This document shows, piece by piece, positions 6,274-30,512 of a stretch of DNA of 64,000 bases. Position 1 is the stretch's first letter, and each line of letters opens with the position of its first letter. Source of the stretch: Leptolyngbya sp. SIOISBB. GTDB lineage: Bacteria > Cyanobacteriota > Cyanobacteriia > Phormidesmidales > Phormidesmidaceae. The notes below the pieces were generated by a model. The model was given only the letters and a program-made list of their open reading frames with translations. It did not search any database and had not been told where the DNA came from. The translations under genes were made by a program, and so were the position numbers. The stretch lies in assembly GCA_010671905.1 (NCBI GenBank), contig JAAHII010000001.1, positions 5,270,001 through 5,334,000 of the forward strand, read 5' to 3'.

Positions 6274-7839
6274 ATGACTTCCGGATCGCGCATGACCCAA
6301 AACGGTTCCATCCAGAATGGCCAGAGCCAAAACGGTAACGGTAATGGCCATATGCCGCCTCCGCCGTCGCCGCCACCCCAGGCGCCATCTAATCCTAACT
6401 TTGAGCGCTCAGTGATTTTGCGGCAGTCGCCTCGCTGGGCTCGCTACGTCGTTTGGGGAATTGTTGGGGTCACCGTTACCACCGTTGTCTGGGCTTGCTT
6501 GGCCAAAATTGAGGAAGCGATTCCAGCCCAAGGCAAACTCGAGCCAGAAGGGGTAGTGCAGCCAGTGCAGGCTCCTGTTGGTGGGGTGGTGGCAGAGATT
6601 CATGTGAATGAGGGCGAGTCCGTGGACCAGGGGACTGTGTTGGTCACCCTCGATCCCCAAGCAACCCGTGCTCAACTAGAATCGCTGCAAGATATCCGCG
6701 ATCGCCTCCTCGAAGAAAACCTGTATTATCGCTCTCAGCTCAGTCCCGACCCAGAAATTTCGGGTGCTCCTACGATCGTTTCTCCGGAAATTGCCCGTCT
6801 GACCAGCAATCGGATAGCTCTGATAGAAGAGAATGAGCTCTACCGCACCATTTTACGCGGCGACTTGGACGCGGCGAACCTGTCTCCCCGTCAGCGCGAA
6901 CGAGTCGCGACTTCGTTGGGAGGCCTTGATTCACAGATTGCGATTAACCAACTGGAAGTTGAGCAGCTGAACAAGCAGTTAGATCAGGTCAATACCCAAT
7001 TGGCGAATGCTGTACAAGCATTGGCAGTCGAGCAAGAGATTTATGGCCGTATTGAACCGTTAGTGGATCAAGGTGGTATTTCTGAACTTCAAGGGTTGCG
7101 ACAAGAACAAGAGGTTAATAATCGGCAAACTGAGGTCAACAGCCTACGCGAAGAGCAGCAGCGGTTGTCATTAGCGATCAATCAAGCGCAGGAAGAATTG
7201 CTCCGTACTCAGGTTGTGTCAGATGAAGAACTGCTGGAGCGGATCGCGGCTAATGACAACCAAATTGCGAATATTGACAGTCAGTTGACTCGGATTGTGG
7301 TCGATAACGAAAAGCAACTGGAGGAAATTGACGGCCAAATTAGTCAGCTAGAGTATGCGTTAGACAATCAAGAACTGCGGGCTCCCCTTGATGGCCAAGT
7401 TTTTAACCTGAAAGCCAATCAGCCAGGGTACGTGGCTAACGCGACAGAGCCGATTTTAGAAATTGTGCCGAACGATACTCTGGTAGCACGCGTCTTCATT
7501 ACAAACCGTGATATCGGGTTTGTCACGCAGCGGTTTCAAGATAGTGAAGAACCGCTCAAAGTAGATGTGCGCATCGATTCGTTTCCCTTTAGTGAATTTG
7601 GAGATGTCGAAGGCACCGTTATTCATATTGGCTCAGATGCGCTGCCGCCAGATGAGGTGAATCCTTTCTATCGCTTCCCTGCTGAAATTGTGTTGGATGA
7701 TCAGCTTCTAGGAGAGGCGTTACCGTTGCAGTCAGGGATGTCGATAACAGCCAACATCAAACTGCGCAAGCGCCGTGTCATTACTATCCTCAGCGATCTC
7801 TTCGTTCGTAAGATCGACAGCTTGAGATCAGGGGGGTAA
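6274..7839 (+). CDS. HlyD-family membrane fusion protein
   Basis: 521 aa. A proline- and asparagine-rich cytosolic tail (1-48) leads to one membrane helix at about 50-70 (VVWGIVGVTVTTVVWA). Then come the first half of a lipoyl/barrel-sandwich domain (PAQGKLEPEG, VQAPVGGVVAEIHVNEGE), a long coiled-coil hairpin (about 120-365, rich in Q, E and L), the second lipoyl half (LRAPLDGQVF), and a beta-barrel ending in a typical SGMSITANIKLRKR. This is the periplasmic adaptor linking the exporter upstream to an outer-membrane TolC. A TolC homologue is encoded at 17389, though in another operon. The ATG at 6274 has a GAGGA-like site about 10 bases upstream. Family call is secure. Confidence 0.93.
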   Translation: MTSGSRMTQNGSIQNGQSQNGNGNGHMPPPPSPPPQAPSNPNFERSVILRQSPRWARYVVWGIVGVTVTTVVWACLAKIEEAIPAQGKLEPEGVVQPVQAPVGGVVAEIHVNEGESVDQGTVLVTLDPQATRAQLESLQDIRDRLLEENLYYRSQLSPDPEISGAPTIVSPEIARLTSNRIALIEENELYRTILRGDLDAANLSPRQRERVATSLGGLDSQIAINQLEVEQLNKQLDQVNTQLANAVQALAVEQEIYGRIEPLVDQGGISELQGLRQEQEVNNRQTEVNSLREEQQRLSLAINQAQEELLRTQVVSDEELLERIAANDNQIANIDSQLTRIVVDNEKQLEEIDGQISQLEYALDNQELRAPLDGQVFNLKANQPGYVANATEPILEIVPNDTLVARVFITNRDIGFVTQRFQDSEEPLKVDVRIDSFPFSEFGDVEGTVIHIGSDALPPDEVNPFYRFPAEIVLDDQLLGEALPLQSGMSITANIKLRKRRVITILSDLFVRKIDSLRSGG

Positions 7840-28814: not shown

Positions 28815-28844
28815 TTGGAGGAGTCTGTTTGAGTATAGTATAAA
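28815..28844 (+). promoter_or_regulatory. Candidate sigma-70 promoter of the umuD'-umuC pair
   Basis: TTGGAG (28815-28820) and TATAAA (28839-28844) are spaced 18 bp apart, 25 bases before the umuD' ATG. I looked for a cyanobacterial LexA box (RGTAC-N3-DGTWC type) here and found no good match, so SOS control is not evident. Confidence 0.35.
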
Positions 28845-28868
28845 TGACCTACTTCTTTGAGCTAACCC

Positions 28869-29198
28869 ATGGGCTTCCCTATTCCTGGCGATGCGATTGA
28901 ACAGAGTCTTGATCTCAACCGTCATCTGGTTCACAACTCGGCGGCGACCTTTTTTATGCGAGTCGGGGGCGACATGGTGAGTGAGGGGGAAGTTCAGGCT
29001 GGCGATTTGCTGATTGTTGACCGATCGCGAACCGCTCAAAATCAATCCCTGGTGGTGGGCATCTTTGACGGTCAACTGGTCGTGTCGCGTGTGCTCAAGG
29101 CCGAAAACTCCCTTCTACCCGGATTGCAGGACGTATCAGTTATCACAAACCCTTGGGAAATCTGGGGCGTCGTGACTCACATTGTTCGTCAGGTCTGA
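28869..29198 (+). CDS. UmuD'-like protein (naturally short, catalytic dyad lost)
   Basis: 109 aa. GFP near the N-terminus, EQSLDLNRHLVHNSAATFF, GGDMVSEGEVQAGDLLIVD and the IWGVVTHIV end align with E. coli UmuD from residue 24 onward. The protein therefore starts at the place where UmuD is normally cut (Cys24-Gly25) and corresponds to mature UmuD'. An in-frame TAA two codons before the ATG rules out a longer form. The position of catalytic Ser60 is Met36, and that of Lys97 is Ser73, so self-cleavage is not expected. UmuD' pairs with UmuC to form translesion polymerase V. The umuC-like gene follows after 6 bases. Confidence 0.88.
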   Translation: MGFPIPGDAIEQSLDLNRHLVHNSAATFFMRVGGDMVSEGEVQAGDLLIVDRSRTAQNQSLVVGIFDGQLVVSRVLKAENSLLPGLQDVSVITNPWEIWGVVTHIVRQV

Positions 29199-29204
29199 CT
29201 GCTT

Positions 29205-30512
29205 ATGTTTGCCCTGGTCGATTGCAACTCGTTCTTCGCCTCCTGTGAAAAGGTCTTTCGCCCTGATCTGGAGGGGCAACCCGTTGTCGTGCTGTCGAAT
29301 AATGACGGTTGTGTGGTGGCGCGATCGCCCGAAGCGAAAAAGCTGGTGCCGATGCAGGCGACCCTCTTCTCCATTCAGCATTTAGTGAAACGGGGAGAAT
29401 TATGCGTCTTTTCCGCTAATCCCGTCTTATATAAAGACATGTCTCGGCGCGTGATTGAAACGCTGCAGCATTTCAGTCCTGAAGTCGAGCAATACTCTAT
29501 TGATGAAGCCTTTCTCGGGCTGCATGGTTTTACCCATCGAGATTTGACGGCTTACGGTCAGCAAATCAAGGCCACCGTGCAGCAGTGGACGGGAATTCCG
29601 GTGTCGGTGGGCGTGGCCCCGACGAAAACCCTAGCCAAGTTAGCGGCCCATGTGGCTAAACGCAATCCTGATCTCAAGGGCATATTAGACTTCAACACCG
29701 TAGCTGATGTCGATGCGGTGTTGGCGGCCATCGATGTCGGCCAAGTGTGGGGTATTGGCGGCAACCTTCGAGCCAAACTCAACGCCCAGGGCATTCGCAC
29801 CGTTTTGCAACTCAAGCATGCGGATGAGCAACGCCTCAAAAAGCAGTTTGGCATTCTGGTATTGCGGACGGTGATGGAACTGCGGGGTGTGGCTTGCTTC
29901 CCGATGGAGCCAGTGGCCGCCCCCAAAACCATGCGCATCGTATCGCGCTCGTTTGGTCACCTGGTGACGGAACTCTCTGACCTCAAAGAAGCCGTCGCGA
30001 CGTTCACTACCCGCTGTGCCGAGAAGCTCCGGGACGACGGCTTAGTGGCGCATCAATTTGCCGTTGCCATTCGCACCAGCTACTACCGCCCAGACAACCA
30101 GTACGCCGCCGCCCGCTCCGTTACCCTTGCAGCACCGACCAATGACACAGCCACTCTGATTCACGCCGCGATGCCCCTAACCGCCGCCGCCTTTAAACCG
30201 GGGTATGAGTACCTCAAAGCCAAAGTGATCGCGACGGAACTCACTCCCGCCGATGCCGTTCAGGGCGAGTTGTTTGCAACTCCGGTGAATACCGAAAAGC
30301 GCGATCGCTTGATGACTGCGATCGATACCCTCAACCGCAAACTCAAACCCGATGCTGTGAAATTTGGCGCAGTGGGACTGAATCCGACTTGGCAGATGCG
30401 ATCGGACTATTTTTCCCAACGCTACACTACCCACTGGGACGAAATCCCTAAGGTCAAAGTTGGACAATCGTCAAGGCTCGCTTCTCCGAGGTCCTTACCC
30501 GTCAACAACTAG
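29205..30512 (+). CDS. umuC: Y-family DNA polymerase, UmuC type
   Basis: 435 aa, close to the E. coli length of 422. The palm has [15 protein letters not shown] (metal-binding Asp6) and YSIDEAF (Asp100, Glu101). Other blocks are [35 protein letters not shown] and [12 protein letters not shown] (helix-hairpin-helix). Near the C-terminus QGELF is a plausible beta-clamp-binding motif, followed by the UmuC-type [10 protein letters not shown] and [14 protein letters not shown]. It copies past DNA lesions with low fidelity, probably together with the UmuD'-like protein upstream. Confidence 0.93.

Follow-up and report, generated by a model that had tools for sequence, protein, structure and literature searches.

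The window, as we call the whole stretch of DNA analysed here, comprises 64,000 nt of Leptolyngbya sp. SIOISBB (GCA_010671905.1, JAAHII010000001.1, positions 5,270,001-5,334,000 of the forward strand). On its + strand, at 28869..29198, lies an umuD-prime-like gene of 109 aa with an ATG start and the N-terminus MGFP, recognized by its ORF, by Pfam/NCBIfam and profile matches, and by structure; umuC (29205..30512, + strand, 435 aa) starts 6 bp downstream. To become the mutagenic UmuD-prime, UmuD must be cut at the Cys24-Gly25 bond by its own Ser/Lys dyad, with the help of RecA. The initial annotation held that the gene of the window encodes UmuD-prime directly and has lost the self-cleavage residues, and the observations on which this was based are borne out. 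When the profile of the clade to which the protein belongs (clade A below) is aligned with the E. coli chains, Gly2-Phe3-Pro4 fall on Gly25-Phe26-Pro27, exactly at the start of UmuD-prime; Met36 (codon at 28974..28976, + strand) occupies the place of the catalytic Ser60 and Ser73 (29085..29087, + strand) that of the catalytic Lys97 (chains 1umu, 1i4v and 8gmt, the Lys97 column being marked by the Ala of 8gmt), and Ser38 is offset by two positions from the Ser60 place, as had been claimed. The in-frame TAA, also noted earlier, reads at 28863..28865 (+ strand), two codons 5' of the ATG with a CCC codon between, and rules out a longer form in the same frame.

The clade-A profile matches the solved E. 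coli UmuD/UmuD-prime chains with E about 1e-22. The window protein itself matches Pfam Peptidase_S24 with 36 bits (cut-off 23.3) and scores 84.7 bits, below the cut-off of 110, in NCBIfam PRK10276 (UmuD). An AlphaFold model calculated with 51 rows has a mean pLDDT of 78.4, with low confidence (57) for the first 10 residues; its best Foldseek matches are UmuD/UmuD-prime structures (8gmt, 4.9e-07; 1umu, 8.6e-07), and the best among the matches re-aligned with VIA-align is UmuD-prime 1umu (Z 12.3, rmsd 2.7, 97 residues). The protein thus shares with E. coli UmuD/UmuD-prime the S24/UmuD-prime fold, sequence kinship (28-31% identity in the structural matches), the umuD-umuC order with its adjacent umuC, and the GFP N-terminus of the processed form, whereas it lacks the 24-residue N-terminal arm, the Cys/Ala-Gly bond at which cleavage occurs, and both members of the Ser60/Lys97 dyad.

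The genome measures 8.3 Mb, and the window belongs to its 7.87 Mb contig. The second contig (463 kb) carries a second short umuD-prime (L002, G000:C2:282373-283500), 66% identical to the first, with the same start and again without the dyad; the umuC beside it is broken after about 203 residues. A single recA, one complete umuC and one further Y-family polymerase (386 aa frame) are present in this genome, as is a LexA that has Ser and Lys (GDSM, LKYF) together with the Ala-Gly bond.

Relatives of the protein were matched at E 0.001 in 25/63 genomes of the window's order and at 1e-8 in 153/388 genomes drawn from the class; the kinds described here were distinguished in 127 distinct rows, those fetched, which are a subset of all matches. 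Clade A comprises 20 distinct intact proteins from 14 genomes, 13 in the window's order and one in another family. Its named members, mainly Nodosilinea and Leptolyngbya-like, include Nodosilinea nodulosa PCC 7104 and other Nodosilinea, Oscillatoria sp. CS-180, Phormidium tenue, Leptolyngbya sp. PCC 7375, Adonisia turfae and Vasconcelosia minhoensis, besides the filamentous cyanobacterium CCP5 and one metagenome genome. All 20 intact proteins have Met at the place before Gly25 of UmuD-prime and lack both dyad residues: the Ser place holds Met, Ala, Leu, Val, His or Ile, and the Lys place Leu, Ser, Thr or Val. A 12-row alignment of the clade contains no column in which Ser or Lys is invariant, so that no shifted dyad is conserved. 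Alignment and trees therefore agree that a clade with the short start and the lost dyad exists, and the intact Ser/Lys pair at other positions that might have contradicted the initial annotation is not conserved among the homologues.

For the 64 clade-A pairs whose dS lies between 0.1 and 1.5, the dN/dS of umuD-prime has a median of 0.18 (range 0.06-0.40), and umuD-prime is therefore under purifying selection in the clade. Identity to the window is 50-66% for UmuD-prime (11 rows) vs 61-83% for UmuC (15 rows, each with the required >300 matched residues in one frame): UmuD-prime is constrained, yet it evolves faster than UmuC. In 14/20 clade-A genes a full-length umuC follows downstream on the same strand.

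The UmuC of the window has matches to IMS, IMS_C and DUF4113 and, by Pfam and alignment, intact Asp6 and Asp100-Glu101, a clamp-motif-like QGELF and a C-terminal tail similar to the tails of other UmuC. This tail is the UmuD-prime-binding region according to PMC6511836. The catalytic Asp and Glu are likewise intact in 18/18 UmuC of clade A and of a second clade, B, described below (15/15 for the clade-A UmuC that reach these columns). We looked for columns with one residue in at least 90% of A and B together and another in at least 85% of the other UmuC, the A/B residue being found in no more than 6% of these. Only three columns qualify: the steric-gate position, Phe11 (codon at 29235..29237), which is Phe in 18/18 A and B sequences vs Tyr in 58/59 others; Gln51 (29355..29357), Gln in 18/18 vs Gly in 57/59; and Pro73 (29421..29423), Pro in 18/18 vs Tyr in 56/59 (all codons on the + strand; one of the 19 A/B rows does not reach the columns). 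Judging by Y-family structures, all three residues are presumably near the nascent base pair. For E. coli UmuC, PMC3493448 describes the Y11F change as having little effect on sugar choice, accepting G:T mispairs and raising mutagenesis, with lesion bypass similar to that of the wild type. Since UmuC points to a common origin of A and B, the UmuC changes and the dyad loss represent one coincidence and no statistical link. As a separate observation, the tails of clade-A UmuC that were seen are preceded by a RecA-like stretch, K-L-x-P-D-A-V-K-F-G or near to it, which reads F-G-x-G/E-T/S in other UmuC.

Concerning the control of the gene pair, the earlier statement that there is no LexA-type box nearby does not hold: a weak one, AGTATAAATGACCT, is found at 28837..28850, with 18 nt between it and the ATG, at a place that is occupied by a stronger site in most relatives. 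It is a weak copy of the clade-A form AGTATAAATGAACT and ranks top of 287 places in the 300 bp upstream when scored, on both strands, with a matrix built from the 48 cyanobacterial LexA sites of PMC3091678. Its score is 7.7 bits vs a training median of 15.7, and by score alone p = 0.07. In 14/20 clade-A genes the best site of the 300 bp upstream lies at -35 to -28 (about 0.03 per gene are expected by chance), as compared with 0/6 genes of clade B, 0/3 and 0/6 of groups T and C (also described below), and 5/82 canonical genes, in which positions were counted from the codon of the cleavage site and which are therefore no like-for-like control. Site scores with p of 0.05 or better against 60 shuffles per gene occur in 11/20 A, 46/82 canonical, 1/3 T, 0/6 B and 0/6 C genes. 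Among 14 clade-A upstream regions that are <50% identical to each other, 11 carry the box at the same place, and in a 13-row upstream alignment the box is the sole longer common block. The clade-A box, AGTATAAATGAACT with its variants, is an inverted repeat of AGTWY (L023 has GGTACAAATGAACT, 14.1 bits), of the same type as the sites before lexA (GGTACAGTTGTTCT) and recA (CATACAGATGTACT) in the window genome. The pattern of the box taken alone was rejected as evidence: with one mismatch it was found 15 times in the window vs 13.8 expected, and genome-wide the pattern was found 95 times vs 170 for a reversed control. The promoter scan called no sigma-70-like promoter on the + strand.

On these grounds, predicted SOS control of transcription has probably been kept in most of clade A while cleavage was lost. 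The suggestion of the initial annotation that control moves to the promoter thus gains support from the LexA-type box upstream of most clade-A genes, although the support from the window itself is weak. In our reading the predicted box has weakened in the window and has decayed in those Nodosilinea in which umuD-prime is no longer next to umuC (rows L012, L015, L017, L036 and L072, all five with a gap of 0.5-1.3 kb between the two genes), and none is seen in clade B. For the UmuC rows of Nodosilinea and Phormidium, a gap of 0.5-1.3 kb was observed in L075 (6331-6913), L076, L077, L079, L080 and L082; the box is decayed in L075, L076, L079, L080 and L082, and the gap of L075 contains an antisense ORF of 102 aa (6406-6714).

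Clade A is not the only group of cyanobacterial UmuD proteins in which the dyad is affected. Clade B (L055-L060) consists of 6 proteins from five genomes of three other families (f7, f15 and f24; clade A is found in f1 and f15). It has an ATG at the same place (MSFP) in 6/6 genes and lacks the Lys in 6/6 and the Ser in 5/6; its short start is likely, not certain, because a TTG or GTG lies 3 to 16 codons 5' in 5/6 genes. L057, which keeps the Ser and has Arg in place of Lys, suggests that in its lineage the Lys was lost first. Group C, six distinct proteins (L042, L044, L047, L049, L050, L110) from seven genomes, retains the arm and the AGFP site and has GEPM at the Ser place and Arg for Lys (Arg-Arg): by its residues, this long form should be unable to cut itself. 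A canonical UmuD is also present in 7/7 group-C genomes, as would be needed for the dead long form to be cleaved in trans or to serve as a brake; this co-occurrence may be due to chance, because several other genomes of the same genus carry two or three canonical copies (G084 and G218 were read). In group T, L062 has a possible short start and both dyad residues intact. It is doubtful that the members of this group are clean intermediates: in L062 and L031 a GTG or TTG lies upstream, from which an arm could be made. Outside A, B, C, T and three phage rows, 82/83 tree rows are long forms with both dyad residues. The one row that deviates, L139b, is the second copy on a short contig (G238) that carries two UmuD copies, one of which has lost the Ser (GDLL) and kept the Lys.

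In the UmuD tree (117 columns, quick method) A forms one branch of 20 rows (support 99), B one of 6 (99), C one of 6 (99) and T one of 3 (98); A is not joined to B, and B, C and T are grouped with 82% support. Left out of this tree, and of the box counts, were L003 (a LexA), L016 (internal stop) and the fragments L032, L034 and L073; the phage rows L095-L097 were left out of the box counts as well. The UmuC tree, which has more columns, also gives clade A as one branch (16 rows, 100), with B (3 rows) as its sister (99). A careful tree of 48/78 rows supports this sister relation with 100/99; the 30 rows left out of it are 21 near copies and 9 that are odd or have long branches. Group T (L031, L062) and group C lie apart from A and B in the UmuC tree, and C is itself split, with L042 vs L044, L047 and L049; L025 and L110 are without a umuC in this tree. 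A single origin for all dyad losses is consequently not supported. Because T and C are placed away from A and B, the dyad has probably been lost at least 3 times in cyanobacteria: in A and B (one event or two parallel ones), in T and in C. Both this count and the sister relation of A and B rest on UmuC, as the UmuD tree keeps the two clades apart.

The closest precedent is found in phages. PMC7092418 presents HumD of phage P1 as the exception that is already a short, directly encoded UmuD-prime, and the P1 record notes that HumD 'functionally complements E. coli UmuD-prime'. P1 HumD (NCBIfam NF051876) resembles the window protein in being directly encoded with an MGFP start and no arm, while its relatives in HK639 and N15 could, by their records or frames, be 3-4 residues longer; in NF051876 the window protein reaches 57.9 bits, below the cut-off of 120. 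HumD differs in that it has kept the Lys (IKRY) as well as a Ser that stands at the catalytic place or beside it (ADSHH, one residue shorter), whereas the window protein has neither dyad residue; in N15 gp26 the Ser is lost (GATH), and in HK639 both are lost (GSTY, IMRY; rows L095 and L097). The HumD genes are phage genes without an adjoining umuC, whereas the cyanobacterial gene is cellular, stands beside its own umuC and occurs in several families. An upstream LexA site is annotated for P1 humD; in clade A it is mostly conserved, and in the window weak. A viral origin of the clade was considered and rejected: a scan of viral contigs with two strict peptide patterns found no relative, and phage and plasmid tblastn matches have <60% identity among the matches listed. 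The canonical UmuD of Synechocystis PCC 6803 (plasmid pSYSM) has the same umuD-umuC pairing and differs in its AGFP site with an upstream arm and in keeping GDSM and VKR. UmuDAb of Acinetobacter is also a rewired UmuD, but in the opposite direction, as it has gained a DNA-binding domain and still cleaves (PMC8565304). Among the matches listed, in a literature whose subscription part was mostly beyond reach, no paper describes a directly encoded UmuD-prime in a cellular genome. What appears to be new here is thus a cellular, dyad-less, directly encoded UmuD-prime, with P1 HumD as phage precedent and a function predicted from the sequence.

The control of polymerase V, a textbook example, comprises several layers, namely LexA repression, UmuD cleavage, retention of UmuC at the membrane and RecA transfer; LexA repression, followed by RecA-triggered cleavage of UmuD, provides two SOS locks. 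We consider it quite likely that the gene of the window encodes a ready-made UmuD-prime subunit of polymerase V, for which cleavage would be skipped and a LexA-type control would be left. That activation by cleavage is skipped, as the initial annotation proposed, follows from the sequence combined with the known biochemistry of UmuD. Translation would start one codon before Gly25 of UmuD-prime and yield UmuD-prime at once. The initiator Met of a protein is removed where the second residue is small, and its removal is expected here for this reason: residue 2 is Gly in 14, Ala in 4, Ser in 1 and Glu in 1 of the clade-A proteins, so that Gly, Ala or Ser is present in 19/20 of these as well as in 6/6 clade-B proteins. 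Trimming by methionine aminopeptidase would then leave Gly-Phe-Pro, the same end that RecA-stimulated self-cleavage produces in E. coli. Since no arm has to be cut off, the Ser/Lys dyad would be free to decay. UmuD-prime would dimerise and join the UmuC made from the gene 6 bp downstream once both are present, and the complex would presumably be an active polymerase V. Only the LexA lock would remain, through putative LexA binding to the predicted box just 5' of the gene. RecA would still be required as part of the active mutasome, in line with its requirement in the active complex as given in PMC12926913; in a structural model from the same source, one UmuD-prime reaches with its N-terminal arm into the cleft of UmuC, close to the active site. 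According to PMC4552617, E. coli UmuC is retained at the membrane until cleavage of UmuD has taken place; a lineage without full-length UmuD should be without this hold and the delay that it brings.

Several other explanations deserve consideration. That the box is non-functional in the lineage of the window, leaving little or no SOS control and a constitutive low level of polymerase V, is the least improbable of them, though unlikely. It would agree with the weak box of the window, with the decay in Nodosilinea and with the missing box in clade B, and has to be set against the recurrence of the top-ranked site at one place in 14/20 clade-A genes, including 11 of the 14 mutually divergent upstream regions. 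We regard it as highly unlikely that a longer UmuD is made from a non-standard upstream start or through a frameshift: a single codon separates TAA and ATG in the window, and 15/20 clade-A proteins have no ATG, GTG or TTG in the open frame within 45 codons upstream, although an in-frame ATG lies upstream in L013 (at -13) and L023 (at -23), a TTG lies within 4 codons in L020, L021 and L037, and 5/6 clade-B genes have the TTG or GTG mentioned above.

The gene might instead be a decaying remnant, whose N-terminus was lost by accident and which is on its way out. Some members of the clade do look like this: L016 has an internal stop in umuD-prime, there are fragments in G021, G022, G024, G035, G043 and G048, and of the six clade-A genes without a full-length umuC (the umuC of one, L036, being cut by the contig end) three have a umuC that is broken or incomplete in frame (L002, on the 463 kb contig of the window genome; L039, where it is in three pieces; L020, where the first 111 residues are missing from the frame) and two have none that was found nearby (L024, and L040, for which only about 1.1 kb of contig is available). 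Such a fate is nonetheless improbable, given the dN/dS values of 0.06-0.40, the intact catalytic residues of 15/15 UmuC and a short start common to several genera. About equally improbable, or slightly more so, is a role as a regulator in trans, in which the short protein would pair with full-length UmuD and alter its stability or activity without a polymerase of its own. A canonical UmuD is indeed present at E 0.001 in 5/14 clade-A genomes; it is absent from 9/14, including the window genome, where none was found (drafts may miss some; the 14 genomes are those of the order-level search, with G036, whose copy has the internal stop, counted and G348 outside), so that no partner in trans is needed, and the short protein has its own UmuC partner, whose tree recovers the same clade. 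The ready-made subunit of polymerase V is therefore the reading that we prefer.

More tentatively, and with somewhat less than an even chance of being right, we propose that the ancestor of A and B lost the arm and the dyad, in part or whole, while its UmuC gained Phe11, Gln51 and Pro73, which would have given a mutasome active upon synthesis with a different, perhaps higher, error rate. A cellular lineage without the cleavage layer, with intermediates in living relatives, would amount to a natural experiment on the purpose of this layer, and makes it possible to ask whether loss of cleavage raises the mutation rate and whether the changes in the polymerase active site compensate for this or add to it. 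Finally, in the canonical UmuD of the Nodosilinea-like rows L026, L061 and L070, whose dyad is intact, the furthest upstream start, when only the usual start codons are considered, is a TTG at -7; translation from there would provide only a very short arm (MFIVTVPA-GFP in L026).
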